A stretch of DNA of 64,000 nt, taken from assembly GCA_017303415.1 (NCBI GenBank), contig JAFLBJ010000001.1, positions 1-64,000 of the forward strand. Direction: 5' to 3'. This document shows, in pieces, positions 30,128 through 56,543 of this stretch (its first letter is position 1; every line of letters begins with the position of its first letter). Under the pieces are notes generated by a model. It did not search any database, was not told the DNA's origin, and saw only the letters and a program-made list of their open reading frames with translations. Both the position numbers and the translations under genes were made by a program. Origin of the DNA: Chitinophagales bacterium. GTDB lineage: Bacteria > Bacteroidota > Bacteroidia > Chitinophagales > Chitinophagaceae.

Positions 30128-30194
30128 TTTATTTATTCTCATTAAACCGCAGCAGTACCGCCTGCGGGATATAAATTATGCTGGGTAATCAATT

Positions 30195-31220: not shown

Positions 31221-31229
31221 AACAACACA

Positions 31230-31256
31230 GGCAGCCCGGCGACGGGCTGCCCTTTT
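31230..31256 (+). terminator. Intrinsic terminator of DUF932 gene
   Basis: A perfect 9-bp stem, GGCAGCCCG with CGGGCTGCC, loop GCGA, followed by CTTTT. It sits 9 bp after the stop codon of the DUF932 gene. Confidence 0.85.
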
Positions 31257-31261
31257 AAAAG

Positions 31262-31317
31262 GTAAAAAAGCTGCCCCGCTATATAGTGGCAGATTTCAGT
31301 ATCGGGCGGGGCAGCTT
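31262..31317 (-). terminator. Intrinsic terminator of the HEPN-motif gene
   Basis: A perfect 12-bp stem: AAGCTGCCCCGC (31268-31279) pairs with GCGGGGCAGCTT (31306-31317). On the minus strand the second arm is followed by TTTTTT. It lies 46 bp beyond the stop of the minus-strand gene 31364-32317 and back to back with the terminator of the opposing gene. Confidence 0.75.
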
Positions 31318-31363
31318 GGGTTATTGTTATTGGCTGAATAAACTTTTTGCTTCTTTTTCTCAA

Positions 31364-32317: not shown

Positions 32318-32361
32318 TACACAAAGTTCGGTTTTCGCCTGCAATATGCTGGCAAGGAGTT

Positions 32362-32404
32362 CGGCATAAACACAGGGCTTAGCGCATGGCTGTCATTTAT
32401 TCCG
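32362..32404 (+). promoter_or_regulatory. Shared leader motif, copy 2 (upstream of RadC-like gene)
   Basis: CGGCATAAACAC (32362-32373), 22 bp spacer, TTTATTCCG (32396-32404), 76 bp before the RadC-like start. It matches the arrangement upstream of ssb, and the flanking GCTG..CAA sequence is partly conserved too. Confidence 0.45.
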
Positions 32405-32479
32405 CTCCTCCTTGCGCAAATTCGGCTGCAACCGGTGAAGGTTTCATAATCAATTTTTCAAACATTAAAAACATGGATT

Positions 32480-32956
32480 ATGGAAAACAAACTAAGCCTG
32501 GAAATGCTGAACAATGTATCAGAAATCGAAGTGGTGTATAAAAGAAAAGTCACCGTTAAAGTATCTGAACGTCCGCTGATCAGGACCTCAAAAGATTGTT
32601 ACGACATCTTAAAAAACTACTGGAATGAAGAAAAGATTGAACTGGTGGAAGAGTTCAAAGTCTTATTTCTGAACCGATCCAACAGGGTTCTTCAACTGAT
32701 GACGGTCTCCAGTGGCGGGATAACCGGTACTGTGGCTGATCCCCGGATCATACTTGCTACAGCCTTAAGGCTGGGTTCCTGCTCCCTTGTCCTCAGCCAT
32801 AACCATCCTTCAGGCAGTCTTAAACCTTCCAGGGCAGACGAAGAACTAACCCAAAAAATCAAATATGCGGCACAGTTTCATGATATAACAGTGCTGGATC
32901 ATATTATCCTAACAAGCGAGGGATATCTCAGCTTCGCTGATGAAGGGCGGCTTTAA
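32480..32956 (+). CDS. RadC-like JAB-domain protein
   Basis: A 158-aa protein of the short RadC/JAB type. The metal-site motif is complete: H107-N-H109-P-S-G...SRAD120 (SHNHPSGSLKPSRADEEL). It is preceded by EEFKVLFLNRSNRVLQLM and followed by VLDHIILTSEGYLSFADEG. It lacks the N-terminal helix-hairpin-helix domain of chromosomal RadC, so it is the short form typical of plasmids, phages and integrative elements. A role in DNA processing or in countering host defences is often proposed but not established. It lies between a divergent HEPN-type gene and the 1343-aa gene. Confidence 0.9.
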   Translation: MENKLSLEMLNNVSEIEVVYKRKVTVKVSERPLIRTSKDCYDILKNYWNEEKIELVEEFKVLFLNRSNRVLQLMTVSSGGITGTVADPRIILATALRLGSCSLVLSHNHPSGSLKPSRADEELTQKIKYAAQFHDITVLDHIILTSEGYLSFADEGRL

Positions 32957-33045
32957 GCCCTTTTTAACTCTATAACTGGCATTGGTCTGCCCACCCTGTC
33001 TGGTATATTGTAGTATTTTTATAGTCCATTACTAAAAACAGTATA

Positions 33046-37077: not shown

Positions 37078-37097
37078 ATTTTAAATTTTCTTTACCA

Positions 37098-38897: not shown

Positions 38898-38909
38898 ACC
38901 ATAAGAATT

Positions 38910-41900: not shown

Positions 41901-42635
41901 GGCATGATAAGCTTTCATTGCAAGGCTAAGAGAAGCTGCGCTTTTTCCCCCTCCGGAAGGAGCAACCAAAAGAGCCAATTTGGTGGCTAACTTCTCTAAT
42001 TGTTTTGACAACTTTTGAACGGCAGAAGTGTCAACAAGTGAAGACTCCTCGGTGAAAATGGCCTGACTGTAATTGGCAAGATTCTCACGAGAAATTTCTC
42101 TTAGCAAAGACTGTGACAACTGTACAGCCCTGATGCCCAAATGCTTCCATCTGAGGTATTGACCGACAGGATCGTTATCCAGGAAATCTTCGAGATTAGA
42201 AAGCTCGATAGTTTTTACCTCAATAAATTTTTCAGGGACCTTTTCCTGAACTTTATTTTCAAGTTCCACGCTGACCCGTTGGTTGGTCACCAGAAAAATC
42301 TGGAATGCACATTCCGGATTTGTAAGGCGCTTCTGCCGTACTATACGTAAGGCTTTTATCAGGTCGCCATCGTTTCCCGGTTTTTTAGGATCTTCTTTTA
42401 GCCACTTCTTTTCCAGGTTGGAATCATCGGTCGTGTATTCAATGTATCCGTAGAGATCTTTTTTTATCGGAGCAAAGGCATCAACCGGGCTTCGGACGGA
42501 TTCTCCTTTTTCATTTAACCCTGCTTCGATCAAATCCTTTAGCTCAGGATATTTTCTGCGAAGAATATCACTACCAATCTTTTCAAATTTTGACCGGTCG
42601 GTTATTGCCTTAAGGATTTCTGCGGTAGTCATCAA
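38910..42635 (-). CDS. STAND NTPase with N-terminal restriction-like domain (Avs-like)
   Basis: A 1241-aa protein. Residues 1-160 resemble a PD-(D/E)XK/Mrr-type fold: FEKIGSDILRRKYPELKDLI, then PVDAFAP (D52) and LYGYIEYTTDD (E66). The Lys of the canonical ExK is Thr here. Residues 190-450 are a P-loop NTPase: Walker A APSGGGKS (225-232), Walker B LIIIDDI (about 294-300), and sensor-like segments WPQNIGLIK and RHDRIRDYLL. The remaining 700 residues are a helical repeat array, as in the sensor half of STAND/Avs antiphage proteins. This order (nuclease-like effector, STAND, repeat sensor) matches the antiviral ATPases that detect conserved phage proteins. It converges on the HEPN gene pair with a 12-bp gap and lies downstream of a 96-aa gene. 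Confidence 0.75.
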   Translation of the reverse strand: MMTTAEILKAITDRSKFEKIGSDILRRKYPELKDLIEAGLNEKGESVRSPVDAFAPIKKDLYGYIEYTTDDSNLEKKWLKEDPKKPGNDGDLIKALRIVRQKRLTNPECAFQIFLVTNQRVSVELENKVQEKVPEKFIEVKTIELSNLEDFLDNDPVGQYLRWKHLGIRAVQLSQSLLREISRENLANYSQAIFTEESSLVDTSAVQKLSKQLEKLATKLALLVAPSGGGKSAASLSLAMKAYHAEEVVLRLEPGIIADSTGIFDAIERQLKRHYPDLFIGKDLLPQLLAGSPLIIIDDINSNNPGVLLDKIISWTQVAEPDNLKMVCPVWPQNIGLIKNSAAKENFYQTLKLNTINRQEGAEFIKQRLSRQGLSLSDSQIIEILNVTRQDPLLMTLYLDRIIKSGGFIANHGQQIIEWYVQENINDLSSKASLTTNRFVLVLDAIGYHMLSNRDLHPTYSSLRKYFRDTGRDFDSFEKLAVNRKLFHAEPDDSIVFRHDRIRDYLLIVSLQNLLPNAANYTSIIEDPYYSQWIGAAIAGQELSDLQIEQLLSLNPPAVFHSLKFLQGEKHQNYFDRIAGKINQWNAQIRTNNITQEVYRSAAFALLSFDTKDVMKITKGLPECLELYLARFRNGETTEGIRYYACQEWFPPRSFNYWRDIVLDHVLQLNFEKTLNDVESLLNQKLTEKGRSPTYLLAGYLRSPTLLPSLQKHWNSNKNENELHVYLWAILNCFNGENLSVLTDALDYWATLKVDPNRKYQSRGIKNDVVHELTGIRWEFTDEQINHLVMLSENPIYAQLIFAIINFLDSPAALGAVIKRLTNQGSPIEQEVFSDAAFDDDRWDVRRGRSKLSEPTRAFLFNHWKDKTNPEKERYRAFRYWCGNESDAIVLAELKSIPKEDTAIYEFSLNWRRSLRDMTVVPEYLQLAEKDLNYMLQADEIWNPDVKAYFKKFLAKTIPETNPVRIGAAIEVLRKINQADAEEILLEFWDNISWVSHGFIIALLIATPKTRQLAAGEINRLGFGHWDRVKDYYQGPLRGYFIIPDVPWNLTQEERTNASFMADEFRHIHFLFGNLVDPGNRQISLARLESLQPYFELMEDHGLSEIARQCRLSNYPEWVQKIASYLSKESKKNVLPTQDDIVEELRHLEISKQAFDFDQYLEKLSGRLIDRDQFAMCLAKFAQSANSFAGLIIICRSLAKMGTRKQIPIIENYVMTEEQYHDKAAPLKANTIYIILRNSLL

Positions 42636-42712
42636 AACAGGCTGATTTTTAGGAAAAATGCTGTCTCGAAAGATACAGAAAATGGGCTGATCAGGATCGG
42701 CTATCAGCCGGA

Positions 42713-43003
42713 TTATGCCTGGATAGATTTGAGTTTCTCATAAAACTCCGTCAGGTCGGCTTTCTTTAATATCTCGGTATGCATCTCCCTGAGTTCCTCA
42801 CTGACTTCCTTTGGTAAAGCACTTATTATTTCGTCAGTGGGCTCATTTTTGGAAGTCAGTAATCCGGTTTCCAGTAGCCTGCCGAGAAGGATAATATTTT
42901 GACGGCTCATATGCAAAACGATCTTGCATTTTTCAGTCATTCCAGGACTGCTCAAAATGGTTTCAAAAATCTTCGCTTTTTCTTTGTTTACTGCACTGCT
43001 CAT
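42713..43003 (-). CDS. Small helical hypothetical protein
   Basis: A 96-aa, probably all-alpha protein: AVNKEKAKIFETILSSPGMT, IVLHMSRQNIILLGRLLETG, ALPKEVSEELREMHTEILKK. No helix-turn-helix is certain. It is divergent from mobC, across the intergenic region that contains the putative oriT, and 77 bp upstream of the STAND gene on the same strand. It could regulate the mobilization genes or be a small partner of the STAND protein. No family is recognised. Confidence 0.5.
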   Translation of the reverse strand: MSSAVNKEKAKIFETILSSPGMTEKCKIVLHMSRQNIILLGRLLETGLLTSKNEPTDEIISALPKEVSEELREMHTEILKKADLTEFYEKLKSIQA

Positions 43004-43148
43004 AACTCACATTTTTATTTATTAAAAATCGTTCTCAAAACTATTATTTATTCGCTGATAGGAGCTAATCAGAATTTGATCAGGTGTTTATTATCGGAAT
43101 CGGTCAGTTTAACTTTACAAGGTCAAAGGTTGCTGTGTCTGCAACCGG

Positions 43149-43181
43149 CAAGATGTTCAATTGTTGCACAATTGCATCTTG
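43149..43181. other. Candidate oriT inverted repeat upstream of mobC
   Basis: CAAGATG-TT-CAATTG, loop TTGCA, CAATTG-CATCTTG: arms of 7 and 6 bp interrupted by a 2-nt bulge, ending 106 bp before the mobC start. Immediately downstream are GTCCC (43182-43186) and GGGAC spaced around a CTCCGGAG palindrome. An inverted repeat just upstream of mobC/relaxase genes is where a nic region is expected. No nick site can be assigned by eye. Confidence 0.4.
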
Positions 43182-43287
43182 GTCCCTATGCCTCCGGAGT
43201 CGGCGGGACTATGGGAAAAGAAGCTTAAAGGGCATAGCGGCAAAAAACAGTGCTTGTCTTTTGCCGGAGATAATGTGAAAATGAATC

Positions 43288-43677
43288 GTGATGAGTGAGC
43301 AAAAAATACCTTCCTGGATTTCCTTTCGGGTCAAGCCCGCAGAGTACCAGAAAATACATTTATTATTTTCCCAATCCACGCATAGAAAACTAAGCGAGTA
43401 TGCACGCAATGTGCTGCTGCAAAAGCCTGTAACTATTAAAGTCAGAAACGAATCCGCCGATCAGTTTTTACATGAAATGATCGGGCTGAAAAAAGAACTG
43501 AACGCCATCGGGAATAATTACAACCAGGCTGTTAAAAAACTCCACACATTAAATCATATCAGTGAGGTAAAATGGTGGTTAAACCAGCACGAAGCACTAC
43601 ATCAAAACTTTCTGCAATTGACGGGTAAAATATTTCAGAAACTTAATGAAATCCACCAGCAATGGTCGTCCGAATAA
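43288..43677 (+). CDS. mobC: MobC-type relaxosome protein
   Basis: A 129-aa protein. The start MMSEQKIPSWISFRVKPAEY begins a ribbon-helix-helix-like N-terminal half (FSQSTHRKLSEYARNVLLQK). The diagnostic MobC motif follows: KKELNAIGNNYNQAVKKLH (about residues 70-88), and a Trp-containing helix. MobC helps the relaxase melt and nick oriT. Its 3' end overlaps the relaxase gene by 16 bp, a translational coupling usual for this pair. Confidence 0.88.
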   Translation: MMSEQKIPSWISFRVKPAEYQKIHLLFSQSTHRKLSEYARNVLLQKPVTIKVRNESADQFLHEMIGLKKELNAIGNNYNQAVKKLHTLNHISEVKWWLNQHEALHQNFLQLTGKIFQKLNEIHQQWSSE

Positions 43678-44930
43678 CCAGCCCGCATAGTCTGCAAAGG
43701 GCGCTCAATTACAATGAGCAGAAATGCCAGCAAGAAAAGGCTGTTTGCCTTTTCGCAGGGAACTATTTACTGGAGGCGGGCCAGATGAACTTCCACCAGA
43801 AAATGGAACGGATGCAGGACCTGATTGCAAGAAATGAAAGGGCAAAAAAATCCAATACACTCCATATCTCCTTAAACTTCGACCCATCCGAGAAATTTTC
43901 GGGGGGCAAACTCACACAGATCGCAACGGCCTATATGGAAAAAATCGGCTTCGGGTCACAACCTTACCTGGTCTATGAGCACCACGATGCCGGTCATCCA
44001 CATATCCATATCCTGACCACTAGTATCCAGCCGGATGGAAAGCGTATTGATACTTATAATATCGGCCGCAACCAATCCGAGCAGGCAAGAAAAGAACTGG
44101 AGAAAAGTTTTGGTTTGATCCCGGCGCAGGGCAAAAAAACAGGACAGGTTGTGGGGATCCGGCCCGTGGATGTACAGAAAGTACAATACGGTAAATCTGA
44201 AACCCGTCGTTCGATTACCAATGTCCTGGATGCGGTGATCAACCAGTTTAAATACACTTCGCTGGCAGAACTGAACGCCATCCTCCGGCAGTATAACGTG
44301 GAGGCTGATCGTGGCCGGGAGAAAGGGATTGTATACAAGTCAGGTGGACTTTTCTACAGGTTGCTGGATGGAAAGGGTAATAAGGTTGGGGTACCCATTA
44401 AAGCCAGTCTGATTCATAACAAACCCACCCTGAAAAACCTGGAGATAAGATTCGCAGAAAATGAGACCCTCCGGCAGCCCGATAAAAAAAGGTTGAAGAC
44501 CTGCATTGACTGGGTGCTGGCCAAATCTCCGTTAAGCCTGGAGGCTTTGATTATTGCCCTGAAAAAAGAAGGGGTACAAGCCGTCCTGCGCGAGAATAAA
44601 GAGGGGCTGGTATTCGGGATTACTTTTATTGACTACAGGACCAAGGCTGTCTTTAACGGCAGTGATATAGGCAAGACCTACAGTATTGCTGGTATCCGGA
44701 CTTCGATGGAGTCTGGGCAAAATGGCTCGGTAAAAGCCCAAAAAACCGCCCCTGAAACCGCCCAGACAAAGGGATTCGGGGAAAGCAAAGAGCCCTCTCA
44801 AACTACCGGGTCGCAACCCTCCCAGGACGGCCTGCTCAAAGAACTGCTGGAGCATGAAAAGAACCTGAACCGGGTTCCTGGTGAACTGCTGAAGAAAAAG
44901 AAGAAAAAACGCAATCCTAACCCTAAATAA
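43662..44930 (+). CDS. Relaxase/mobilization nuclease (MobA/VirD2-like)
   Basis: A 422-aa relaxase. The probable nicking residue is Tyr17 (ALNYNEQKC). The metal-binding His triad is H112-P-H114-I-H116 in EHHDAGHPHIHILTTSI, preceded by HISLNFDPSEKFSGGKL. The order Tyr motif, LNFDP block, HxHxH is that of Pfam Relaxase. The C-terminal third is a basic, Lys/Ser/Gln-rich tail ending in a Lys run (KKKKKKRNPNPK) that may bind DNA or the coupling protein. It overlaps mobC and is 6 bp from the coupling-protein gene. It identifies the element as mobilizable in trans, since no mating-pair-formation genes are visible here. Confidence 0.92.
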   Translation: MVVRITSPHSLQRALNYNEQKCQQEKAVCLFAGNYLLEAGQMNFHQKMERMQDLIARNERAKKSNTLHISLNFDPSEKFSGGKLTQIATAYMEKIGFGSQPYLVYEHHDAGHPHIHILTTSIQPDGKRIDTYNIGRNQSEQARKELEKSFGLIPAQGKKTGQVVGIRPVDVQKVQYGKSETRRSITNVLDAVINQFKYTSLAELNAILRQYNVEADRGREKGIVYKSGGLFYRLLDGKGNKVGVPIKASLIHNKPTLKNLEIRFAENETLRQPDKKRLKTCIDWVLAKSPLSLEALIIALKKEGVQAVLRENKEGLVFGITFIDYRTKAVFNGSDIGKTYSIAGIRTSMESGQNGSVKAQKTAPETAQTKGFGESKEPSQTTGSQPSQDGLLKELLEHEKNLNRVPGELLKKKKKKRNPNPK

Positions 44931-44936
44931 GTACCT

Positions 44937-46916
44937 ATGTCATCCGGAACCGGCGAAAATGAAGCGGGCCTCAGAAAAATCCTGGACTTTACCCGGTTGG
45001 GGGCCATTTTGGTCCTGCTCCTGCATTGTTATTTTTACTGCTACGGGGCTTTTGAACGCTGGGGGCTCAGTTCCCCCTGGGGCGACCAGTTCCTCCAAAA
45101 TATTGCCCTTACTGGGCTCTATAGCACGCCTCTGAAATCTAAGTTGATTGCCCTCGGGCTGCTGGGGATTTCCTTGCTGGGGGCAAGGGGCAAAAAATCC
45201 GAAAATATCAACCCCCGATCCATCCTGATTTACCTGGTTTTGGGGCTAAGTCTTTACTTTTCCAGTACCCTTATTCTACGCTTTCAGGGCCCTGTGGAGC
45301 AACTGGCAACCGGGTATATGATCCTGACAGGAACAGGGTTCTTATTGGTGCTGGCGGGTGGCAACCTGCTCAGCCGGTATATCAGGGTGAATTTGGGAAA
45401 GGATATTTTCAACGAGTTAAATGAAACATTCCCCCAGGAAGAACGGTTGTTGGAGAATGAATACTCGATCAATCTTCCTGCACAGTATAACCTGAGGGGT
45501 AAGGTCCGAAAAAGCTGGATCAATATCATTAATCCGTTTCGGGGGCTACTCGTTTGCGGCTCACCCGGAGCTGGTAAATCCTACTTTGTGATTCAGCATA
45601 TTATCCGGCAACATATCCGGAAAGGGTTTACCATGCTGGTCTATGATTTTAAATACGACGACCTGACCAAAATCGCCTACAATACGTTGCTGAAGAACAA
45701 GAGCAGTTATAAAGTAGAACCGAAATTCTATACCATCAATTTCGATGATCTTTCCAAGAGTCACCGCTGTAATCCGCTGGATGCTTCCACCATGTTCGAT
45801 ATAACGGATGCAACCGAAGCTTCCCGTTCCATTATGATGGGCCTGAACCGGGACTGGATCACCAAACAAGGGGATTTTTTTGTAGAGTCACCGATCAATT
45901 TTTTGACGGCAATTATCTGGTTCCTGAAAAAATACCAGGGTGGGAAATACCTTACATTGCCGCATGTAATTGAACTGATGCAGGTGGACTATGAAAAACT
46001 ATTTTCGGTTCTTCGCACAGAACCGGAAATAGAAGTTCTTATAAATCCTTTCATATCGGCCTACCAGAACGATGCGATGGAACAATTGGAAGGCCAGGTG
46101 GCCAGTGCCAAGATCGGGATGGCTCGTCTCTCCTCCCCGCAACTTTATTGGGTACTTTCTGCAAACGATTTTACATTGGACATTAATGACCCTGAAAATC
46201 CCAAGATCGTTTGTCTTGCCAACAATCCTCAAAAGCAGCAGATTTACGGGGCAGTTCTTTCTTTATATGTGACCCGTTTAATTAAGCAGGTCAATCAAAA
46301 AAATAAACTGAAGTCAAGTCTGATATTTGATGAGTTTCCCACCATTTTTTTCAATGATATTGATAGTTTAATTGCAACGGCACGTTCCAACAAAGTAGCC
46401 ACTTGCCTGGGAATCCAGGATTTTAGTCAGTTGAAAAAAGATTATGGTGCAGATCAGTCTGCCGTAATAATGAATATCACCGGCAATATCATTAGTGGGC
46501 AGGTAACAGGTGAAACCTCCAAATTCCTTTCTGAGCGATTCGGAAAAATTAATCAGGTCAAAGAGAGTATTTCTATCAATCGAACTGATACTTCAGTAAG
46601 CAAATCCAGCCAGTTGGATTTTGCCATACCTCAGTCAAAGATCGCTGGCCTGTCATCTGGTGAATTTGTCGGCATGGTAGCAGATGATCCCACGAATAAA
46701 ATAAAGCTGAAGACATTTCACTGTGAAATTCTTAATGATCATGCCCAACTAACAGCAGAATCTGACCTATATCGGAAACTACCGGTTACTACACAAATAA
46801 CTGTGCTAATGGTAAATGAGAATTTTCGTAGAGTCAAAGCTGAAGTAGTTGGTATAATTGAAACAGAGATCGAGCGAATTTTGAATACACCAGGCCTGGA
46901 CACGCTAACAAAGTAA
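44937..46916 (+). CDS. Type IV coupling protein (VirD4/TraG family)
   Basis: A 659-aa inner-membrane ATPase. The N-terminal 140 residues contain about four hydrophobic segments (LGAILVLLLHCYFYCYGAF, LGLSLYFSSTLIL, GFLLVLAGGNLL). The cytoplasmic part has Walker A CGSPGAGKS (about residues 207-215), Walker B SSLIFDEFPTIFF (about 462-474), and the TraG/TraD pair IATARSNKVATCLGIQDFSQL and NITGNIISGQV. It recruits the relaxase-DNA complex to the conjugation channel. The ending (about residues 620-659) is not typical of the family. The next gene starts 35 bp after its stop. Confidence 0.9.
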   Translation: MSSGTGENEAGLRKILDFTRLGAILVLLLHCYFYCYGAFERWGLSSPWGDQFLQNIALTGLYSTPLKSKLIALGLLGISLLGARGKKSENINPRSILIYLVLGLSLYFSSTLILRFQGPVEQLATGYMILTGTGFLLVLAGGNLLSRYIRVNLGKDIFNELNETFPQEERLLENEYSINLPAQYNLRGKVRKSWINIINPFRGLLVCGSPGAGKSYFVIQHIIRQHIRKGFTMLVYDFKYDDLTKIAYNTLLKNKSSYKVEPKFYTINFDDLSKSHRCNPLDASTMFDITDATEASRSIMMGLNRDWITKQGDFFVESPINFLTAIIWFLKKYQGGKYLTLPHVIELMQVDYEKLFSVLRTEPEIEVLINPFISAYQNDAMEQLEGQVASAKIGMARLSSPQLYWVLSANDFTLDINDPENPKIVCLANNPQKQQIYGAVLSLYVTRLIKQVNQKNKLKSSLIFDEFPTIFFNDIDSLIATARSNKVATCLGIQDFSQLKKDYGADQSAVIMNITGNIISGQVTGETSKFLSERFGKINQVKESISINRTDTSVSKSSQLDFAIPQSKIAGLSSGEFVGMVADDPTNKIKLKTFHCEILNDHAQLTAESDLYRKLPVTTQITVLMVNENFRRVKAEVVGIIETEIERILNTPGLDTLTK

Positions 46917-46951
46917 TTAGCAACAGAAAACTGTAAATTCACTCAAAAAAA

Positions 46952-48496
46952 ATGGCTGAACAGGGTATGAAATTACCAATAGGAAAAATATCAGGGCAAG
47001 CACTTGATACGCTGTTTAATGAGTCGATCAATTATCATCTCGATATATATGTAAAGGCAATAGCAGAATATGAGATGACTGATCTATTTAGCAACTGGCG
47101 AACCATTATTCGTACAATAGACGAACTGATCAATATTGCCGGAGAACTGAAGAATCCTGAAGAAGCAAGCAAATTTTTAAATCTAAAATTTGATTTTTTA
47201 AAGGATGACAATTTGAAATTATTCAAAAAGGTATTTGAAATATTAGAAACAAGGTTTGAAAACAATGTTTCGACAAGATTTCAGCAGCTCGCCATGATGT
47301 GTTACGCAATTAATGCAACTTATCGAAAGCAGGGCATTTATGAAAAGATGGGTCTGCCGCTATATCTTTCGTCCACTTCGGATAGCATAGATTTTTTTCA
47401 GTCACGCAGGGCCTATTTTGTTACCACTCTGACACTGATCCCACAGATTGCAAAAGGGGAAAAGGTAGTTCGCTACTTGGACACTTTAAATTATCTGCAA
47501 TACACGCTTGATAGTTGCCTAGTAGGGATCACGACTTCCTACTACAACCTGCTCCTAAATCAAAGCTTACCCGACTATGAAATGACTTCGGACGGCCAGA
47601 AGGCCATCGGCAATTTTGAATATCAGCATTTGGAGGGCTTTTTCATGGAACCCGAAAGACTTTCCTTACTGGACCAGATGGAGCTTCGGCCTGAATTAGT
47701 AGAGGATAAACCAATGCTGCCAAAATCAGAAAAGAAGGTTTTTTCATTTAGCGAAGTAGCCAACGCAATGGCTCTATTTGAAGGAGCGTTTAAAAAATAC
47801 AATCTTGCTCAGTGTATAGAATTTATAGAGCTCAATTCTTTCTTCGGCGACATTGCTGTTTACCTGAAAGATGACTTTAACTTGATCATTGATGAAGAAC
47901 AGTTCGATCCTATTGCTCAAAAATACCCTTCTTTAATCCTTACCAATGCCACCGACAATTATTTTAAGGCCTTGAATAGTTTCGTTCCTTTCCAAAAAGT
48001 TCATAATTATTACTTTTCAACGGTTGTCTTCCTGACCAGACTGGTATATCGAACATTGTCGCAGTCGCTGGTTAAAAACAGGTCATTTCAAATAAACTCA
48101 GGATTTGTTTTTGAAGACAAGGTTTCTGCTATTCTCGCAGCCAATGGATTTGCCATAACAGGTATCACAAGGATAAATCATAAGGAATTTGACCTCATCA
48201 CCATTAAGAACGGAAAGGTTTACAATTTTCAGTGTAAGAATAATTTCATAGACATTACCAGAGTTAATCTTGATTATAAAAAAATGGGCCGCCTCAATTT
48301 AAGACTATGCAGTTACTATGTTAAAGCTTTGGAAAAGGAAGCTGGTAGAGAAAGACTAATTATTGGTAAAACGGGAATAGCCAATATCGAGCATTTTGTG
48401 ATATCCAGGTATCCGGTAATTACCAGAAATTCCAATATCATCAATTTTACAGATCTTGAGAAGTGGATTCAAAGTGCTGCCGCTAAAGATAAGTGA
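46952..48496 (+). CDS. PD-(D/E)XK nuclease-fold protein in the mob operon
   Basis: A 514-aa soluble protein. The first 370 residues are helical with no recognised domain (MCYAINATYRKQGIYEKMG, LSLLDQMELRPELVEDKPM). The C-terminal domain has the restriction-endonuclease-like order: E388 in FVFEDKVSAILAANGF, D414 in HKEFDLITIKNGKVYNF, and Q427-x-K429 in NFQCKN. That is E, D and QxK at the spacing seen in PD-(D/E)XK enzymes. It lies 35 bp after the coupling-protein gene and 58 bp before an AbiV-like gene. It may be a nuclease effector or a DNA-processing partner of the relaxosome. I favour cargo, because such proteins are not core conjugation parts. Confidence 0.65.
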   Translation: MAEQGMKLPIGKISGQALDTLFNESINYHLDIYVKAIAEYEMTDLFSNWRTIIRTIDELINIAGELKNPEEASKFLNLKFDFLKDDNLKLFKKVFEILETRFENNVSTRFQQLAMMCYAINATYRKQGIYEKMGLPLYLSSTSDSIDFFQSRRAYFVTTLTLIPQIAKGEKVVRYLDTLNYLQYTLDSCLVGITTSYYNLLLNQSLPDYEMTSDGQKAIGNFEYQHLEGFFMEPERLSLLDQMELRPELVEDKPMLPKSEKKVFSFSEVANAMALFEGAFKKYNLAQCIEFIELNSFFGDIAVYLKDDFNLIIDEEQFDPIAQKYPSLILTNATDNYFKALNSFVPFQKVHNYYFSTVVFLTRLVYRTLSQSLVKNRSFQINSGFVFEDKVSAILAANGFAITGITRINHKEFDLITIKNGKVYNFQCKNNFIDITRVNLDYKKMGRLNLRLCSYYVKALEKEAGRERLIIGKTGIANIEHFVISRYPVITRNSNIINFTDLEKWIQSAAAKDK

Positions 48497-48554
48497 ATAC
48501 AAGTTGATCGGTTAGAGATGTAATCTAATTAAGAAATTATAGTCATTAGTGTAA

Positions 48555-50123
48555 GTGAGCAACAAAGAAAAATATATCCAATTCAATGCTTTCAGACGTC
48601 TCTGTATTAAAAATGCAGAAGATAATTTGAAAGGCGCCCGTGAACTAGCGGGAAAGAATCTAAACCATTTGAGTTTCCATCTCTGTATTTTGACTCTTGA
48701 AGAGATTGGAAAGATTTTTATGGCTTGGATGAAATTAAACCAGGTTGAAAATTGGGACAGAGAAACGATGAATGTGGCCTTAGACGACCACATCAAAAAG
48801 CTCTTTTTCGCCATATGGGGACCATCCATTGGCAAAGACGTAATAACCAAAGACCAATGGAGCGAAAACCAATTCATGGCCAGAAATCTCCATGAACTTC
48901 GGCTACTTTTTCTTTATGGATCGTTGGAAGACCAGGTACCTTCCTCTCAGAAAGTTTCCGACGAGTTACTGAATCGCATTTTATCGTTTACCCAAAGCCG
49001 GTTTGATCTGGCAGCGATAGAAGGCGAAGTGAATGAAGATGATGCTGATATCATTGATCCACTTCGTGAATGGTTTCAAAATTATATGCAGATTGAAAGT
49101 AAAAGTAATTACATAGTATCTGCCACTACACAGGCCAAATTAATTGAACTAGGTGATATTCGCGCCTGGATGCAGTGGTTAAAGGATGAACATGAAAAAG
49201 AAACTGCTACTCTGAATGAACTGAGCGAAAAGGAAATCAATAAACCAATCCCTGAAAACTTTGAGAAGTTTGAAGAAAAATGGGAAATTAATTTTACACT
49301 GATCACCCCGTCTCATTCAATTCGTAAAAAAGAGATTAATGCTTTTAATAAATATCCCAGGCCATTTTCCTTTGCAGCAAGCAAGGATAAGCACACCCTC
49401 AAGGTTAAAGTAATTCTACCGTCGGTTGTTACCGTACATATTCTTTGGCATCAGTCCTGGTACATTTCGAAAACAATAGCAGCCGCCTTAAGTATTGCCA
49501 CCCGTGGAATATTCTATTGGCATGTGCCCATCGACACAGACGTATTTTATGATTCTATTATTGATCTGGAATCGAAACAACGACTTAGGCTATCCGTGCC
49601 AGAACAACTGAAAGCGAATTGGCAAAGCAGGGGGATGGTTTTGCAAGAACAAGAAATGCACCTGGCTGGCATTGTGCATGACTATTTCCTGCATGTTCAT
49701 TTAAAAGCAGATCAACAGGAAGTCGAGGAGTACATGACAGCACTTTCGATGCTCTGCAGAACAGACATTCACCTGCGACTCGATTTCGATGCGTTCAGGA
49801 TTTTCTTCAATACCTTTCGGCAATTGCTTCTTAAACACGAAAAAATAGCAAATAAAGAGCAGGTTTTCGAAGTGGGATATGCGCAGATTCAGGGAATGAT
49901 TAAAGGACGCACGGAGTATGACCGGGTTATTAAACTTGCGTTGGATGTTGAAACAAAAACAGTATTGCATCATTCAATAACAATGACCGAAGTATTAGCA
50001 ATAAAGATTTATTGCGATATATACATATTGACGGTAGCCGTCAGAACTGTGCAGAATAACCCTGAAATAAGATTAGTGGGTTCGATGGAAGATGTACCCC
50101 CCTCTGAAAATTCTACGGAATAA
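48555..50123 (+). CDS. AbiV-like abortive-infection protein (GTG start)
   Basis: A 522-aa protein starting at GTG 48555 (MSNKEKYIQFNAFRRLCIKN). Residues 20-60 follow the AbiV pattern: NAEDNLKGARELAGKN, then FHLCILTLEEIGKIFMAW, with LEEIGK at 48-53. The known AbiV domain is about 150-200 residues, so this one has a long C-terminal extension containing HQSWYISKTIAAALSIATRG and VHDYFLHVHLKADQQEVEEY. AbiV proteins interfere with phage protein synthesis. It follows the nuclease-fold gene by 58 bp in the same operon direction as the mob genes. The extension is not assigned. Confidence 0.65.
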   Translation: MSNKEKYIQFNAFRRLCIKNAEDNLKGARELAGKNLNHLSFHLCILTLEEIGKIFMAWMKLNQVENWDRETMNVALDDHIKKLFFAIWGPSIGKDVITKDQWSENQFMARNLHELRLLFLYGSLEDQVPSSQKVSDELLNRILSFTQSRFDLAAIEGEVNEDDADIIDPLREWFQNYMQIESKSNYIVSATTQAKLIELGDIRAWMQWLKDEHEKETATLNELSEKEINKPIPENFEKFEEKWEINFTLITPSHSIRKKEINAFNKYPRPFSFAASKDKHTLKVKVILPSVVTVHILWHQSWYISKTIAAALSIATRGIFYWHVPIDTDVFYDSIIDLESKQRLRLSVPEQLKANWQSRGMVLQEQEMHLAGIVHDYFLHVHLKADQQEVEEYMTALSMLCRTDIHLRLDFDAFRIFFNTFRQLLLKHEKIANKEQVFEVGYAQIQGMIKGRTEYDRVIKLALDVETKTVLHHSITMTEVLAIKIYCDIYILTVAVRTVQNNPEIRLVGSMEDVPPSENSTE

Positions 50124-50270
50124 TAGCAGTAATATTCCATACCAGATCGAAATAAAAAGGTACCTTTAGCATAGCGTATTTGACACGTAAAACAAGCCTA
50201 AAAATACCAGTTTACGGATTCGTTTACGGTTTTTTTTATATTAATTGATTCTCAATAAATTATTTAGCCC

Positions 50271-50469
50271 TGTCGAGGCTACACTAAAATTTTTAGGATT
50301 TAAGGAATTTAAGGATCGAGATATGACCTTGGATTCCTTATTTTTTTGGGGATCTTTTTTACTTGGCCGTAGTCTATTGCCCTATAATCGGTTCAGGCCT
50401 TAGGTGGTAAGACTACGGCCAGCGTCCTTCTGATTTTTGGAAATATTGAGGAAGACTCGGGAGAGCGGG
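50271..50469 (+). repeat. Dispersed repeat, copy 1 (longest)
   Basis: About 199 bp. It begins TGTCGAGGCTAC, then ATTTAAGGAATTTAAGGATC, a 12-bp inverted repeat (50364-50375 with 50410-50421), and a right end ATTTTTGGAAATATTGAGG ... GAGAGCGGG. Copy 2 at 54321-54442 shares both ends but lacks about 77 bp in the middle. Copy 3 at 56432-56515 shares the left half and the GAAGACT-GGGAGA end. Its right part, read on the minus strand, forms the last codons of the pseudogene 50413-50682. Confidence 0.7.
50364..50421. repeat. 12-bp inverted repeat inside repeat copy 1
   Basis: TGGCCGTAGTCT (50364-50375) and AGACTACGGCCA (50410-50421) are perfect complements with a 34-nt loop. Inside the loop, CCTA and TAGG could pair again. 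The corresponding hairpin in copy 2 carries one change (CGTAG to CATAG). Confidence 0.75.
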
Positions 50470-50682
50470 GTCTGCCCGGTAATGAGCACTTTTGATGTAT
50501 TTGCTGATGTTGTATTCTTCTACCCATTCGCCCCTTTCAATGCTTAACTTTTGAAACTGTTTGGCCGCCTTGTCCAGCGCCTCCTTGGAGAACTGTTCTT
50601 TGGCAGGTAAATCAGATGTTCCAATTAGCTTAGAAATGACAGATTTTAGTTGTTTTATTTCTTAAAGAATTTCTTTTTCCAT
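50413..50682 (-). pseudogene. Truncated gene with internal stop, end formed by repeat
   Basis: A 90-codon minus-strand frame from ATG 50680-50682 to TAG 50413-50415. Codon 7 is TAA (50662-50664), so the start is MEKEIL-stop. Beyond it the frame reads like a real protein: EIKQLKSVISKLIGTS, then LPAKEQFSKEALDKAAKQFQ, KLSIERGEWVEEYNISKYIK, SAHYRAD. The last 17 codons (PALPSLPQYFQKSEGRWP) are encoded by dispersed-repeat copy 1. The parent gene appears to have been cut by recombination at the repeat and then inactivated by the nonsense codon. The parent family is not known to me; the segment looks DNA-binding-like. Confidence 0.55.
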
Positions 50683-50796
50683 AATCACACCAGAGAATCT
50701 TAGGTTAAAAATATTTATATAAACCGCTCTCAAAATATCTAAATAACTCTTCCTATAAAACTATAAAGTAAAAAAATCACAGCATTCAGATCTACT

Positions 50797-53700
50797 TTAA
50801 TTGTTCTGATTATACAAATCCTTTAATTCTAAAGAGCCTTGCTCCGCCAATTGTATGCAAATATTATCTGCCATCTCTTTAAATCCTGAACTGTAAAGTT
50901 TTTGAACCAAAACTTTTAATTCTTTCTCATAGAACGGTGTAACAAGCTTTGCGTCATAAACCTGCTGGACAAGTTTTCCAGCAAATTCAATATTTGAATC
51001 AGCAATTTTGTAAAGATGTCGTAGAAAGGAATAAACCTCTCTTCCATTTTTGGCTTTCGCAATTACTTCACTTGCTAAATCAAACGACTTTTTTTCAATT
51101 TTTGGCAAGCGTTCAAAAAACCAAAGTAATATCGGATAATAATCGGCTAAGGCAGTAGTGCTTTCAAATATTGGCATAAGCCGCTCCCAGAGGTAAATCA
51201 ACTCTTCTTGTGAGAGAAGCCTTCGCTCAAAAACTACTCGAACCAACTGTTTTATTTGTTCTGGATCTTTTTGTTGAAGCACTTCGGCAAGGATGCTGTC
51301 ATTTTCTGGATCACCTTCCCAAACTTTCCATTCCAGCAAAGCATATCCAATTACGGTACTGAGAGCTGCAGATTCGTTCTTTAGATATTTCAAAGCTTTT
51401 TGAAATAAATTGTGCTTTTTGAAGAACTTATAAAAAGCCTCGGATAGCTGAGAAGCTCTATAAAGTGCGGTATGCAAACGGAGGTCAAAGTGCCGAGTAT
51501 TTTGTTCATCAAATATCTCTCCCAAATATTTTTCTACCCAAGCTTGATCCAGATATAGCAGTAATTGAATTTCCATTCCTAAAATGATAGAAAAATCGCT
51601 GTCCTTAATTTCATGACTTCCTACAAGTTGTGTAAAGTGCGTTTTAACGGCGGTGGGCCAACGTACTTGCTGATTTTTGTCTGAAAACACATTGGCCCAA
51701 AGCTTAGTCAATTCTATTAATGCTAGGTACAATCGACCGGGTGTACTATTCAGTACGTTGTTGATATAGTCACTGTTTATGTCATCGCTATTTTGAAAAA
51801 CAGTGTTGTTGATCATTGCTAATACCAAAGAAATCATACGGTTTGCATCTGAAACATCAACGCTAAGCGATTGATGTTGAAATGAAACGGTTTTGACGAA
51901 TTCCCCGATGCTTCCGGCTAACCACCTCTTGTAAAAAAACTGTTTCTCATCTTCTTTGTCAAAACTTGTGTCTGAAAGCTTGGCCTCTGCAAAATCCAGC
52001 ACCAAGGAAAAATCAACTAATTTTTCATCTCGCAATGCTACAGTGAGGCCATCGAGGAGATGGCTCAAGTATAATGAATGAAGCGGAATGAACTCTGTCA
52101 GTGAATATAGATATTTGTCCGGCTCGCTCCTTGCATTGTACTTTAGCAATTCAGCTAAACCTTCTTCAGAAGTATCGTGCGGATACTCTGGTTTGTAAGA
52201 AAGGATAAACTGAATTTGTTCGTGAATTGAAAGCTTCATGAATTCTTCAACTGCCATTGGGTAATCTGGGCCAAAATGGCTCGTACCATAGCTGTCAAAC
52301 TCAGGGTGATCAGTTATCTTTCCTTCGTACCAAGTTCGGTAAAATGCCTCTTTGTCTGTTAACAGCCCTTTGCTTTTCTGAGTTGCCGGTTGTAGTGAGG
52401 TTAACCACCTACGAATACGAGACCCTGCGTAACGCTTTTCTTCAGTACCATCTTCATTTACATCGGGCGGATTCAGCCTCTCTATCCATCCAACAACTTT
52501 TTTAAACTCTTCATCACTAAAAGCCATTGAATGTTCCCTAAGTAACACATATGGTTCATGAATGTATATGTCATCCTCAGCGCCGGTATTGTCCACAAAA
52601 TGCCACCACTTTTCCTTGAGTAAATCAAAGTTCATTCGGATGAAATGAATGCCCAGCCGTTGCAGGACTTGTATTTTTGAGTCAAACAATTTATCTACTA
52701 AAGTACCTAGCTGCTTTGATTCCAACTTTGCACCAAAATCACGAATGAAATAAACAATCTCGTCCTCCCAATCATGGCTATACACTGTTTGGCTTGTTTC
52801 CTCAATCGATTTAGGGTTGCCATGTGACAGGTTGTAAGAACCAGACTTTGTAAGATCTTCTATCTTGCCTATTGCAATTTTTAAAGCATCTATGCCAAGC
52901 AACTCCATAATTTTTTCACCATAGCGGTGCAATAACTCTGTGATGTAATGCTTTTGTACGTTTGGTTTGTTCTGATAATAGGGTTTCGCCTCTTCGCCGA
53001 AAAAACTAATGGCTGGATTTTCATGTATCGTAAACCCGAAAAAATAGCTAAGAAGGTTTTTTAAACCTTCAATATCTTTCTTAGCAACCAGTTTTGCCGC
53101 TAAGCCCTCGGTAAGTCTAGAGTGTACAAGACTCCATGAGTCCCCATAACTATCGTACTTTTCAATGAAAGCACGTTCGTTCTCGGTAAAAGAAAAGTCA
53201 TCAATGTTAATGATGATGTCCAATAAGTCAGAAACTGTGAACGCATGTAATTCTACTCCGCCGATATAAAATTTCATCACATCATTCACAATTTCAATCA
53301 ACGAATTTTTTACGTTGCGCCGTGCTTTTGTAGAAATATTAAGAAGATATTTCACACTGTACCAATAGTCAGGCGCAGCGTTTCCTTCTGCCTTCTTGGG
53401 TATTTCATCGGCGTTGAAAAAACCGTGTTCCTTAAGAGGCTTTAACCAAAGTGTTTTATCCAAACGTGAAAAAAAGTAGTGCGCATGCTTGGGATTGGAA
53501 AGTATGTTTTTCAGCGCTAGCAAGACTTCCCCAGGCGGCTCTTCAAGCTCCAACAAATTATCAAGCCGGTTGGTAATACTCAGAAACGAGCCAATTACAA
53601 TGTCTAGAACTTTTTCATACTCAGCCCATATTGCAATAATTTCGGTGGCATCTACAGATGTGCTGTGAATGTCTTTCCGGTGTGCTATCCGGTGAAAATT

Positions 53701-54027
53701 TTTGGCAACAGCTAACCATCTATTCGCAAATAAATTATTGGGATCATTTTTTCCAACCGCTGCCAAGATGGAAGCAAAATGCCCATCTTTATCTGGGTCA
53801 TAATTTGGCAAGGAGGCGCCCACTTTTTTAATCGCCTTATCTGGTGCAAACACGTCGCGTAAGCCCCCATCAATTTCTCGTGCAGCATGGGCAATCATAT
53901 TAGCCTTCGATGAGATAGTACATTCTGGTGTTGCCATTTTCAGGCCATCCAAGTAAAAGTTAGCTAACGCTTCACCAATATTTTTTAAACCGTCATGTAT
54001 CCGCTGTTGATTCTCTGTAAGCATCAT
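50797..54027 (-). CDS. Large helical protein with HEPN-like N terminus, repeat-flanked
   Basis: A 1076-aa soluble protein. Its first 150 residues resemble HEPN-type helical bundles: NMIAHAAREIDGGLRDVFAP (about 43-62) and AVAKNFHRIAHRKDIHS (about 106-122). The bulk is helical and repeat-like, with blocks such as LKEKWWHFVDNTGAEDDIYI, ITDHPEFDSYGTSHFGPDYP, KQLVRVVFERRLLSQEELIY and GREVYSFLRHLYKIADSNIEF. No catalytic motif is certain. It is bracketed by repeat copies 1 and 2 together with two gene remnants, like a cassette inserted by recombination. A defence role is plausible by size, architecture and neighbours but unproven. Confidence 0.7.
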   Translation of the reverse strand: MMLTENQQRIHDGLKNIGEALANFYLDGLKMATPECTISSKANMIAHAAREIDGGLRDVFAPDKAIKKVGASLPNYDPDKDGHFASILAAVGKNDPNNLFANRWLAVAKNFHRIAHRKDIHSTSVDATEIIAIWAEYEKVLDIVIGSFLSITNRLDNLLELEEPPGEVLLALKNILSNPKHAHYFFSRLDKTLWLKPLKEHGFFNADEIPKKAEGNAAPDYWYSVKYLLNISTKARRNVKNSLIEIVNDVMKFYIGGVELHAFTVSDLLDIIINIDDFSFTENERAFIEKYDSYGDSWSLVHSRLTEGLAAKLVAKKDIEGLKNLLSYFFGFTIHENPAISFFGEEAKPYYQNKPNVQKHYITELLHRYGEKIMELLGIDALKIAIGKIEDLTKSGSYNLSHGNPKSIEETSQTVYSHDWEDEIVYFIRDFGAKLESKQLGTLVDKLFDSKIQVLQRLGIHFIRMNFDLLKEKWWHFVDNTGAEDDIYIHEPYVLLREHSMAFSDEEFKKVVGWIERLNPPDVNEDGTEEKRYAGSRIRRWLTSLQPATQKSKGLLTDKEAFYRTWYEGKITDHPEFDSYGTSHFGPDYPMAVEEFMKLSIHEQIQFILSYKPEYPHDTSEEGLAELLKYNARSEPDKYLYSLTEFIPLHSLYLSHLLDGLTVALRDEKLVDFSLVLDFAEAKLSDTSFDKEDEKQFFYKRWLAGSIGEFVKTVSFQHQSLSVDVSDANRMISLVLAMINNTVFQNSDDINSDYINNVLNSTPGRLYLALIELTKLWANVFSDKNQQVRWPTAVKTHFTQLVGSHEIKDSDFSIILGMEIQLLLYLDQAWVEKYLGEIFDEQNTRHFDLRLHTALYRASQLSEAFYKFFKKHNLFQKALKYLKNESAALSTVIGYALLEWKVWEGDPENDSILAEVLQQKDPEQIKQLVRVVFERRLLSQEELIYLWERLMPIFESTTALADYYPILLWFFERLPKIEKKSFDLASEVIAKAKNGREVYSFLRHLYKIADSNIEFAGKLVQQVYDAKLVTPFYEKELKVLVQKLYSSGFKEMADNICIQLAEQGSLELKDLYNQNN

Positions 54028-54122
54028 ATAGAAAAAGGAATGTAATTTACCAAACCTGTTGTTTAAAATGTTTTTAACCTTATGATTTTCAGTTTGTTAA
54101 TTAAGAAATCGATTTTATGCCC

Positions 54123-54305
54123 TTAAGTACCTTTCATCATTGGAGTAGCTTCTTTGCAGAAAATCATGTCCCTAACATTCTTAAAAATGCTTCTATTTGC
54201 CTCATTCTTTTCAAAAATAAGTTCGACTTCATGCGTCCTGCTTCTACTAATTTAACGACTATTATATTCCGCGTTTACTAAAATACCATCCTTGGTATCT
54301 TTCAT
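54123..54305 (-). pseudogene. Gene remnant with internal stop
   Basis: A 61-codon minus-strand frame from ATG 54303-54305 to TAA 54123-54125. It has a premature TAA at codon 18 (MKDTKDGILVNAEYNSR-stop), after which the frame continues THEVELIFEKNEANRSIF, KNVRDMIFCKEATPMMKGT. The continuation looks like real coding sequence. It lies between the 1076-aa gene and repeat copy 2, mirroring the pseudogene on the other side of the cassette. Family unknown; low confidence. Confidence 0.35.
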
Positions 54306-54320
54306 GCGGAATTCGATTCC

Positions 54321-54442
54321 TGTCGAGGCTACTAACTTGGCCATAGTCTATTGTCCTATAATCGATTCCGCCTACGACAGTAAGACTACGGCCAGCATCC
54401 TTCTGATTTTTGGAAATATCGAGGAAGACTCAGGAGAGCGGG
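54321..54442 (+). repeat. Dispersed repeat, copy 2 (internally shorter)
   Basis: About 122 bp. It shares TGTCGAGGCTAC with the left end of copy 1, then jumps to ACTTGGCC(A/G)TAGTCTATTG, CCTATAATCG and ATTTTTGGAAATATCGAGG ... GAGAGCGGG. About 77 bp of copy 1 are absent. The inverted repeat is TGGCCATAGTCT (54338-54349) with AGACTACGGCCA (54383-54394), one mismatch on the plus strand and a G-U pair in a minus-strand transcript. Confidence 0.7.
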
Positions 54443-54495
54443 CATAAAACATTCTACGCCGCTCTTCTTTATTTGAACCCTTTCGGAACAATAAT

Positions 54496-55512
54496 TTATT
54501 TGTCCAAAGACGGTTTAACAAGAGCCCCGCTACGCGAATCCAGGATACAAAGGGCATCACTTCCCAGGTGGGGGCTGTGCATATCATCTTTGTTTGTGGC
54601 AATGGCTACCATCCCAGCTCTATATACACAGTAAGAAATCCGGGTGCTGAGATTGGATGGAGTTTCCCATAATTTTTTGCCCTGTAAATCAACCCGCGTA
54701 AATACGGCCTCTGATTCGCTGCCAGTTTTCCTCTGGTGAACAATTATATACCCTTCGGGTGTAGAAAGACGAATGACCTGATCCAGATAATTATCTACCG
54801 CTAAACAAGGATCGAAATAAAGGGTTTCACCAAGATTATGCAAGGAGTCATAGATATAGCGATTATACAAACCCATCTTTTCCAGAGAATATTTTGTCGA
54901 ATAAAATTGCATGGGATAGGCGGATCCCTCTAAATCGGTAAAACCAGGCCTGGTATCGGCGGCGGACTCTTTGTTTCTAGCTAATATATAAACACGATTG
55001 TATTGTGTATCGCATCGCGTTCCATAGTCCTCCTTGTGTAGTAGCCTATTGTAATTGATCTTGGAATCAATTGGCGCAGATTCCTTTCCCGAGGCCCAGG
55101 CTTTTTTAAGATCGGTCTCCTCAAGGGATGTGATATCAAAAGCCCTGACGCGATCTATATCCAGCCAAATCGTATTTCCTTCTACCCCTTTACAGGTTAC
55201 GGTCTGGTTATCCAGCCTTCCGGTTTTTAATAATTTTATCCTCTTCAGGAATTTTCCGGTTCGTGTTTCATACTGTTTGAGCCACCAGGTGGTCGTATAT
55301 TCTGTTTTGCGGTAACCTCCATTGACCTGCGAAGTGACGCCGTCGTTCTCGGCAACAAGTACCACCACCAAATTTCCATCCAGACTTACGGCAGGCATGC
55401 CGACTATTCCAAAGTTGGTGCTTGTTTGCTGACAACCTTTTAAAAAATAGAAAATGCCAATCCCGATCGTGATCAGCAGAACAGGAACAAGTACGATGCT
55501 TCGGTGCTTCAT
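54496..55512 (-). CDS. Membrane-anchored PA2928-like protein
   Basis: A 338-aa protein with one N-terminal anchor (HRSIVLVPVLLITIGIGIFYFLKGC, possibly a lipobox at KGC). The outer part has repeated beta-rich blocks, as in propeller-like proteins: MPAVSLDGNLVVVLVAEND, WWLKQYETRTGKFLKRI, RVYILARNKESAADTRPGFT, GYIIVHQRKTGSESEAVFTRV, KKLWETPSNLSTR, and a C-terminal ALCILDSRSGALVK. The overall plan (anchor, KxYETxTGK, LARNKES...) fits PA2928-type proteins, whose role is unknown. Its end lies 53 bp right of repeat copy 2. Confidence 0.65.
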   Translation of the reverse strand: MKHRSIVLVPVLLITIGIGIFYFLKGCQQTSTNFGIVGMPAVSLDGNLVVVLVAENDGVTSQVNGGYRKTEYTTTWWLKQYETRTGKFLKRIKLLKTGRLDNQTVTCKGVEGNTIWLDIDRVRAFDITSLEETDLKKAWASGKESAPIDSKINYNRLLHKEDYGTRCDTQYNRVYILARNKESAADTRPGFTDLEGSAYPMQFYSTKYSLEKMGLYNRYIYDSLHNLGETLYFDPCLAVDNYLDQVIRLSTPEGYIIVHQRKTGSESEAVFTRVDLQGKKLWETPSNLSTRISYCVYRAGMVAIATNKDDMHSPHLGSDALCILDSRSGALVKPSLDK

Positions 55513-55713
55513 AGTGGGAAATTAGGAAATTTAATTTGCCAGTTGTCTTACTCACTCCTAACGACCACAATTAGATTTCACCAGATTACGGCCAATCCAG
55601 AGTAAGTATAAACCAGACAGGCAAAAAAACCATGCCCACCACCTCGCCGGTTTTTAACAGCGAGGGAATGCCCGCCTTTCCATTGTCCCCGTACCTTTAT
55701 AAAAAAACCGGCC

Positions 55714-56427
55714 ATGACAAAATACCTGCTCCTTTTCCTGCTGCTCCCGGCCGTCGGCCTGCCAGCCTGTTCGCAAAAACCTATTGACCATCCAGGCTAT
55801 AGCCAGAGCACTTTTGAATCGGTGCGGTATGGATTGTTCCGTCCGGTGGTGGAAGCGGGGCGGCGCTATCCCTTGCTGGTCTACCTGCATGGCGCCAATG
55901 ATACGGTGTCACGGGATTTGTCGTGGTACAGTGCGGAGCGACAAGCGCAGTTTCCCTGTTTTGTACTGACGCCGAAGTGCACGGTCAGTGACCAGGGCTG
56001 GGGCAATACCTGGGTGGCGGGTCATACGTCTACTACGGCGGCGGTCCTGCGGCTGGTCGATTCGCTGGTGAAGGTCTGCGCAGTGGATACCAGCCGGCTC
56101 TATATCTATGGGATATCGATGGGAGGGTTTGGGGTATTTGCGGTGCTGCAAAAAAATCCGGGTCTGTTTGCCGCTGCCTATAGTGTTTGCGGGGGGTCAG
56201 ACACCAGGGCTGCCGCCGTTTTAACACAAACGCCGCTTTGGATTTTTCATGGTGGGGACGATAATGTTGTACCGGTATCGTTGTCGCGGGACGTTTACCA
56301 AGCCATAAAAGAAGCCGGTGGCACAAAAGTGCGCTACACTGAATACCCTGGCGTCCGCCACGACAGCTGGCTGAATGTGGAGAAGGAAACCGAACTTCCG
56401 GGTTGGCTGTTCAGTCACCGGAAATAA
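55714..56427 (+). CDS. Alpha/beta-hydrolase lipoprotein (carboxylesterase-like)
   Basis: A 237-aa lipoprotein (MTKYLLLFLLLPAVGLPAC; lipobox LPAC). An alpha/beta-hydrolase fold follows: strand PLLVYLHGAND (oxyanion HG), YIYGISMGGFGVF with nucleophile Ser135, IFHGGDDNVVPVS with the catalytic Asp, and YPGVRHDSWLNVE with the catalytic His. It resembles prolyl-oligopeptidase-type and PHB-depolymerase-type esterases secreted by Bacteroidota. The substrate is not inferable. It is markedly GC-richer than the genes to its left, which suggests the boundary back to resident chromosome lies near 55.6 kb. Repeat copy 3 follows 4 bp after its stop. Confidence 0.85.
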   Translation: MTKYLLLFLLLPAVGLPACSQKPIDHPGYSQSTFESVRYGLFRPVVEAGRRYPLLVYLHGANDTVSRDLSWYSAERQAQFPCFVLTPKCTVSDQGWGNTWVAGHTSTTAAVLRLVDSLVKVCAVDTSRLYIYGISMGGFGVFAVLQKNPGLFAAAYSVCGGSDTRAAAVLTQTPLWIFHGGDDNVVPVSLSRDVYQAIKEAGGTKVRYTEYPGVRHDSWLNVEKETELPGWLFSHRK

Positions 56428-56431
56428 TCAT

Positions 56432-56515
56432 CGTCGAGGCTGCAACCCGATTTTTGGGATTTAAGGAATTTGAGGATCGAGATTTGGGAAGGTTGGGGAA
56501 GACTTGGGAGATCGG
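56432..56515 (+). repeat. Dispersed repeat, copy 3 (partial)
   Basis: About 84 bp directly after the esterase stop. It reads CGTCGAGGCTGC, then GGGATTTAAGGAATTTGAGG, ATCGAGAT, and GGGGAAGACTTGGGAGATCGG. It matches the left 52 bp of copy 1 with few changes and also its terminal GAAGACT.GGGAGA, but has no hairpin. Confidence 0.6.
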
Positions 56516-56543
56516 ATTATACAAAACTACTTTGCCAATAAAA

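Follow-up and report, generated by a model that had tools for sequence, protein, structure and literature searches.

The stretch of DNA analysed here, called the window throughout, comprises the first 64,000 nucleotides of contig C1 (C1:1-64000) of a Chitinophagales bacterium, and genome searches covered 3.72 Mb on three contigs (C1-C3). Its right part carries three direct repeats (Table 1). A first-pass annotation had described copies 1 and 2 as repeats in the same orientation, sharing both ends and bracketing a 1076-aa gene and two dead genes, as insertion or swapping of a cargo cassette would leave them. Alignment of the three copies confirmed that these repeats are real: between copies 1 and 2, a 63-bp block is 95% identical (50407-50469 and 54380-54442) and a 34-bp block 91% identical (50361-50394 and 54335-54368), both in the same orientation, and the overall match is 88% across 109 bp (E 4e-34). 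Copy 1 resembles copy 3 across 54 bp (83% identity; 50272-50325 and 56433-56486; E 9e-11) and across a further 33 bp of the tail (82%). The 1076-aa gene between copies 1 and 2 is indeed an intact ORF. The two disrupted frames exist and contain stops, but they are at most putative dead genes, no homologue having been found in the collections searched.

Table 1. Features of the locus in window coordinates.
Feature	Position	Strand	Remarks
Right part of the 93.9-kb ICE	1..50285	+	Remainder at C3:202364-246094; tra genes, MobB/MobC
MobB-like relaxase and MobC coupling protein	43662..46916	+	NCBIfam NF041325, NF041326
TTTACGG-N5-TTTACGG pair	50211..50229	+	Unique within the window (0.01 expected)
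Copy 1 core, attR of the ICE	50269..50285	+	17/17 to tRNA-Arg 3′ end and two bases beyond
Copy 1 spacer with GGATTTAAGGAATT	50286..50325	+	Common to copy 3, 83% over 54 bp including the core
Copy 1 hairpin-tail	50355..50471	+	
Disrupted frame 1	50467..50682	-	Frame with stops; no homologue in Pfam, plasmids or viral contigs
1076-aa DSR1-like gene without SIR2 domain	50797..54027	-	Intact ORF; PADLOC Dsr1
Disrupted frame 2	54126..54320	-	Frame with stops; no homologue in Pfam
Copy 2 core	54312..54332	+	21/21 to tRNA-Arg 3′ end
Copy 2 hairpin-tail	54329..54446	+	About 50 nt past the stop of the 338-aa gene
338-aa gene, weakly PA2928 family	54496..55512	-	NF041516 E 4e-7, under cut-off
Inverted hairpin copy	55540..55602	-	84.7% to L031; profile E 1.9e-8
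Alpha/beta hydrolase gene, between copies 2 and 3	55714..56427	+	Pfam Hydrolase_4 E 8e-12
Copy 3	56433..56519	+	Eroded core (9 bp), spacer, tail remnant; after HxlR gene

The repeat is a mosaic of four blocks, which from left to right are a core (GTCGAGGCT), a spacer (GGATTTAAGGAATT), a hairpin (GGCCGTAGTC...GACTACGGCC) and a tail (TCTGATTTTTGG...GAAGACTCGGGAGAGCGGG). The core block starts all three copies and occurs exactly three times in the window. Copy 1 contains all four blocks, copy 2 contains core, hairpin and tail, and copy 3 retains a short core, the spacer and a remnant of the tail. Read on the minus strand, sites 1 and 2 both run gene, tail, hairpin, core; site 3, which follows the HxlR gene, shows an eroded form of this order. 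Hairpin elements also bracket the 338-aa gene: the inverted copy lies about 28 nt ahead of its start, and the hairpin-tail of copy 2 comes after its stop. The spacer sequence GGATTTAAGG was considered as an informative marker and set aside, as short lookalikes elsewhere in the genome, with neither core nor tail, give it little meaning alone. What appeared to be a single repeat combines two unrelated, adjacent ones, the end of a tRNA gene and a hairpin-tail element. Hundreds of scattered copies, which the first-pass annotation had named as speaking against a cassette, were not what the genome contained: the exact core occurs at the tRNA and in copy 2, and strong hairpin-tails occur in five places. 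That annotation had missed the tRNA 3′ end at the left, the inverted hairpin and the hairpin-tail copies elsewhere in the genome.

When the copy 2 sequence was compared with the whole genome, 21 of 21 bases matched at C3:202357, within a tRNA-Arg(CCG) gene (C3:202306-202378, ARAGORN). The match to the 3′ end of this intact tRNA is 17 bp in copy 1, 21 bp in copy 2 and 9 bp in copy 3. A genome search found the core in its exact form solely in tRNA-Arg(CCG) itself and in copy 2, and allowing up to three mismatches added a second tRNA-Arg and nothing else. The left ends of the repeats are thus the 3′ end of tRNA-Arg(CCG).

Immediately after the tRNA-Arg gene lies a tyrosine recombinase gene (405 aa) with Arm-DNA-bind_5, SAM-like and catalytic domains. 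C3 ends and C1 begins with an identical 75-base sequence in the same orientation (75/75), and such an end overlap is what assemblers leave at a break. As judged from this contig overlap rather than from reads, the end of C3 joins the start of C1 and the two parts make up one ICE, with a joined distance of 93,926 bp from the tRNA core to copy 1. Between its att sites are, besides the recombinase, a relaxase (MobB, at 285.9 bits for NF041325 under the curated cut-off of 400), a coupling protein (MobC, at 1111 bits for NF041326 over its cut-off) and T4SS genes, the interior encoding TraG, TraJ, TraM and DUF4138 proteins. In the window, the paired TTTACGG motif stands 39 bp to the left of the copy 1 core. 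On C3, a search of C3:190001-210000 gave one such pair (0.01 expected), 115 bp to the right of the tRNA core. These pairs at both ends of the ICE are probably integrase arm sites, at which the integrase would bind. As they resemble arm sites, the ICE ends on its right at copy 1, which leaves the 1076-aa gene outside.

With its TraG, TraJ, TraM, DUF4138 and MobB/MobC genes and its SAM-like tyrosine recombinase, the element shares the features of CTnDOT-type ICEs of Bacteroidota. It differs from them in its target, here the tRNA-Arg(CCG) 3′ end, and in carrying a class II Argonaute and metal-efflux genes, the latter recognized by reading the ORFs. The class II prokaryotic Argonaute gene sits together with a Cas4-like nuclease gene near the integrase (C3:205418-208772), and an AbiV-family abortive-infection gene is located just within the right end (window 48555-50123). 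Three large ORFs of 1343, 599 and 1241 aa (window 33046-42635) had no match in Pfam, PADLOC or NCBIfam; it is possible that they are novel defence genes.

The distance from core 1 to core 2 is 4,048 bp, with a single intact gene of size. Residues 129-1076 of its 1076-aa product matched positions 274-1225 of the PADLOC Dsr1 profile (E 1.1e-113), which makes it similar to the anti-phage protein DSR1 over its C-terminal part. In contrast to DSR1, the protein lacks the N-terminal SIR2 domain, for which there was no match in Pfam even at E 10, and no other Pfam family matched. A structure model of the first 130 residues was poor (mean pLDDT 49) and only its helix content was used; it was all helical, so that in place of a SIR2 domain there is a short, probably helical N-terminus. 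An FHRIAHR motif in this region recalls HEPN domains, which proves nothing. As SIR2 is absent, the effector must differ from that of DSR1. Two relatives of the protein, both distant, were found on plasmids and none in genome contigs, phages or solved structures; a Streptomyces plasmid protein shares the N-terminal part at 28%. Based on the profile match, the gene is a probable anti-phage defence gene.

CIMEs (cis-mobilizable elements) are att-flanked elements without integration or transfer genes of their own that lie beside an ICE with the same target and form by accretion (PMC5704250). The 4,048-bp segment is flanked by attL and attR with full core identity to the tRNA-Arg end (17/17 and 21/21), has the DSR1-like gene as its only intact ORF of size and contains no integration or transfer genes. 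By this anatomy it is a CIME-like relic, presumably mobile, in tandem with the ICE. Like CIMEs in tandem at tRNA genes (PMC5704250), it adjoins an ICE that uses the same tRNA end, whereas here the likeness between copies extends about 110 bp past the att core.

In a congener (G001), the MarC-tRNA-Arg neighbourhood is conserved for about 12 kb leftward. There the tRNA-Arg gene is followed by a terminator-like palindrome and then mscS, and neither a core copy nor the paired repeat was found after it. This congener has an empty tRNA-Arg site with a conserved left flank and a rearranged right flank: mscS, located after the tRNA of the congener, is found in the genome studied here at C1:1087667, so the right-side comparison fails, and synteny of GH97 and mscS did not place the right chromosomal border. 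In another genome of the family (G029), an identical second core of 22 bp lies 471 bp beyond the same tRNA. The 471-bp module between the two tRNA-Arg cores (L080:1500-1993) contains a GIY-YIG-like ORF and is an independent, small att-bracketed module at the same tRNA. No strain lacking the 4-kb segment alone turned up. Of the proposed insertion or swapping, insertion is supported by att cores at a tRNA hot spot beside an ICE and a probable defence gene; for swapping, neither a same-flank genome with other cargo nor a protein closely related to the 1076-aa product was found.

The hairpin-tail half of the repeat has a distribution of its own. A profile search of the fetched loci located it in five places, namely the window, C1:656-661 kb (L031), C1:1865-1875 kb (L032), C1:350-360 kb (L033) and the starts of C2 and C3. 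A covariance model recovered 18 strong copies, or about 25 with weaker ones, and about 20 lie outside the window. L031 and L032 are Rhs loci (TIGR03696). In L031, every short ORF has a plus copy before and a minus copy after it, and the (-)/(+) pairs between ORFs make up 410-bp units that are 88-91% alike and have inverted ends of about 65 bp. Hairpin-tails abut gene ends, and their homology halts abruptly at GCGGG, mean pairwise identity dropping from 86% over the last 20 bp to 27% at 11 bp and more past the tail. Across the 197 family genomes searched, weak relatives were detected in G063, G122 and G188 alone, which keep the tail and have a different hairpin that is still palindromic. Within the genome, hairpin covariation was uninformative (54/500 shuffles were equally high). 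The repeat elements had no convincing match to known RNA families and none in viral contigs, and an exact-pattern scan of genome contigs was discarded, as its two matches both lay within polA coding sequence. Integron attC sites were ruled out, as the genome has no IntI integrase match over the TIGR02249 cut-off.

The same hairpin-tail array is present at the starts of C2 (C2:1-1700) and C3 (C3:1-2200), on opposite strands and 96% identical over 234 bp; it probably broke the assembly here. At L033, hairpin-tails follow the stops of a cluster of unnamed ORFs (C1:351081-359857), one HD/ATPase-like and one NERD-like by eye, with a tyrosine recombinase nearby (C1:348684), about 1.7 kb beyond the stretch read. 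As none of the L033 genes tested was named by PADLOC and the small ORFs where C2 and C3 begin do not correspond to known immunity genes, a firm connection with conflict genes is limited to the Rhs loci and the DSR1-like gene. With short co-oriented ORFs and conserved intergenic repeats, L031 and the C2 and C3 starts resemble rAID orphan-immunity arrays (PMC12247911), although the L031 ORFs are candidate immunity genes at most. A tyrosine recombinase adjoins rAID arrays (PMC12247911); none was seen among the ORFs listed in L031 and L032. Unlike in rAID arrays, the repeat here also occurs beside the DSR1-like gene and in Rhs tandem loci. Overall, the hairpin-tail constitutes a repeat family of its own, marking the ends of genes in Rhs loci and other accessory regions.

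Two accounts of this family are about equally likely, and neither is likely as an explanation of the locus. If the hairpin-tail were the active boundary, acting as the recombination site of a conflict-gene cassette system much as the intergenic repeats of rAID arrays or attC in integrons do, the cores derived from the tRNA would have arrived independently. The five places with strong copies, two of them Rhs loci, the bracketing of L031 ORFs and of the 338-aa gene alike, and the sharp halt at the tail end all speak for such a boundary, which we nevertheless consider unlikely: no dedicated recombinase was seen beside L031 or L032 among the ORFs listed, and the 1076-aa gene lacks the inverted hairpin bracketing of the array ORFs. 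An extension, whereby cutting at the GCGGG tail end would let short toxin, immunity and defence genes come and go as units that would also enter tRNA att sites beside ICEs, seems quite unlikely. Alternatively, hairpin-tail pairs could be the ends of a miniature transposon (REPIN/MITE-like) inserted between genes, with gene bracketing as a by-product. The 410-bp units with their inverted ends would fit this, as would a truncated REP-associated-transposase-like ORF between two inverted hairpin-tails in G188 (L149:9933-10915). However, this ORF matched Y1_Tnp at just E 0.22, single ends without a partner occur in the window and L033, and no RAYT gene was flanked by the same hairpin, all four Y1-transposase genes of the genome lacking a hairpin-tail nearby; we regard a transposon as rather unlikely. 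Beside the truncated ORF of G188, a metallopeptidase-like ORF starts within the tail. Segmental duplication within the locus, instead of integration, would account for a likeness that reaches past the core, over 109 bp in copies 1 and 2 and over 54 bp and the tail in copies 1 and 3. Yet each copy keeps a different subset of blocks, the paired repeats of the ICE stand beside copy 1 alone, and the tRNA match is longest in copy 2, which argues that copy 2 is not a duplicate of copy 1, making such a duplication improbable.

The explanation we consider probable is accretion of elements in tandem at a tRNA gene that is a hot spot of integration. The attachment site would be the tRNA-Arg(CCG) 3′ end, with the CTnDOT-type ICE and its own tyrosine recombinase seated between the tRNA and copy 1. 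The segment between att cores 1 and 2 would be a decayed island of the CIME kind whose surviving cargo is the DSR1-like gene, and copy 3 would be an older, eroded scar. The ICE integrase would recognize cores 1 and 2, so that the segment could leave alone or together with the ICE; the order of insertions is likewise our reconstruction. Directly observed are the core identities with the tRNA, the contig join by its 75/75 overlap, the recombinase after the tRNA, the TTTACGG pairs at both ICE ends, the tra and Mob genes and the integrase-free 4-kb segment, to which we add the DSR1 match, the empty congener site, the second core in G029 and the CIME accretion model (PMC5704250). Against accretion, copies 1 and 2 also share about 110 bp right of the core, the core of copy 3 is just 9 bp and the right chromosomal border was not located. 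Site-specific integration duplicates the core alone.

The mobile-DNA anatomy of the locus, tandem islands at a tRNA, is ordinary; less ordinary are the lack of SIR2 in a DSR1 relative and the sharp bounds of a repeat also found in Rhs arrays. The conservation of the tail between genera, with a hairpin that changes yet stays palindromic, would fit a structure-reading enzyme if the hairpin-tail were indeed a cassette boundary. Together, with tandem accretion as the probable explanation, an unexplained direct repeat becomes a readable history of entries, unit by unit, at one tRNA, with a probable anti-phage gene as the surviving passenger, and the locus yields both a relative of DSR1 whose effector end is different and a family of sharply delimited repeats linked to Rhs loci.
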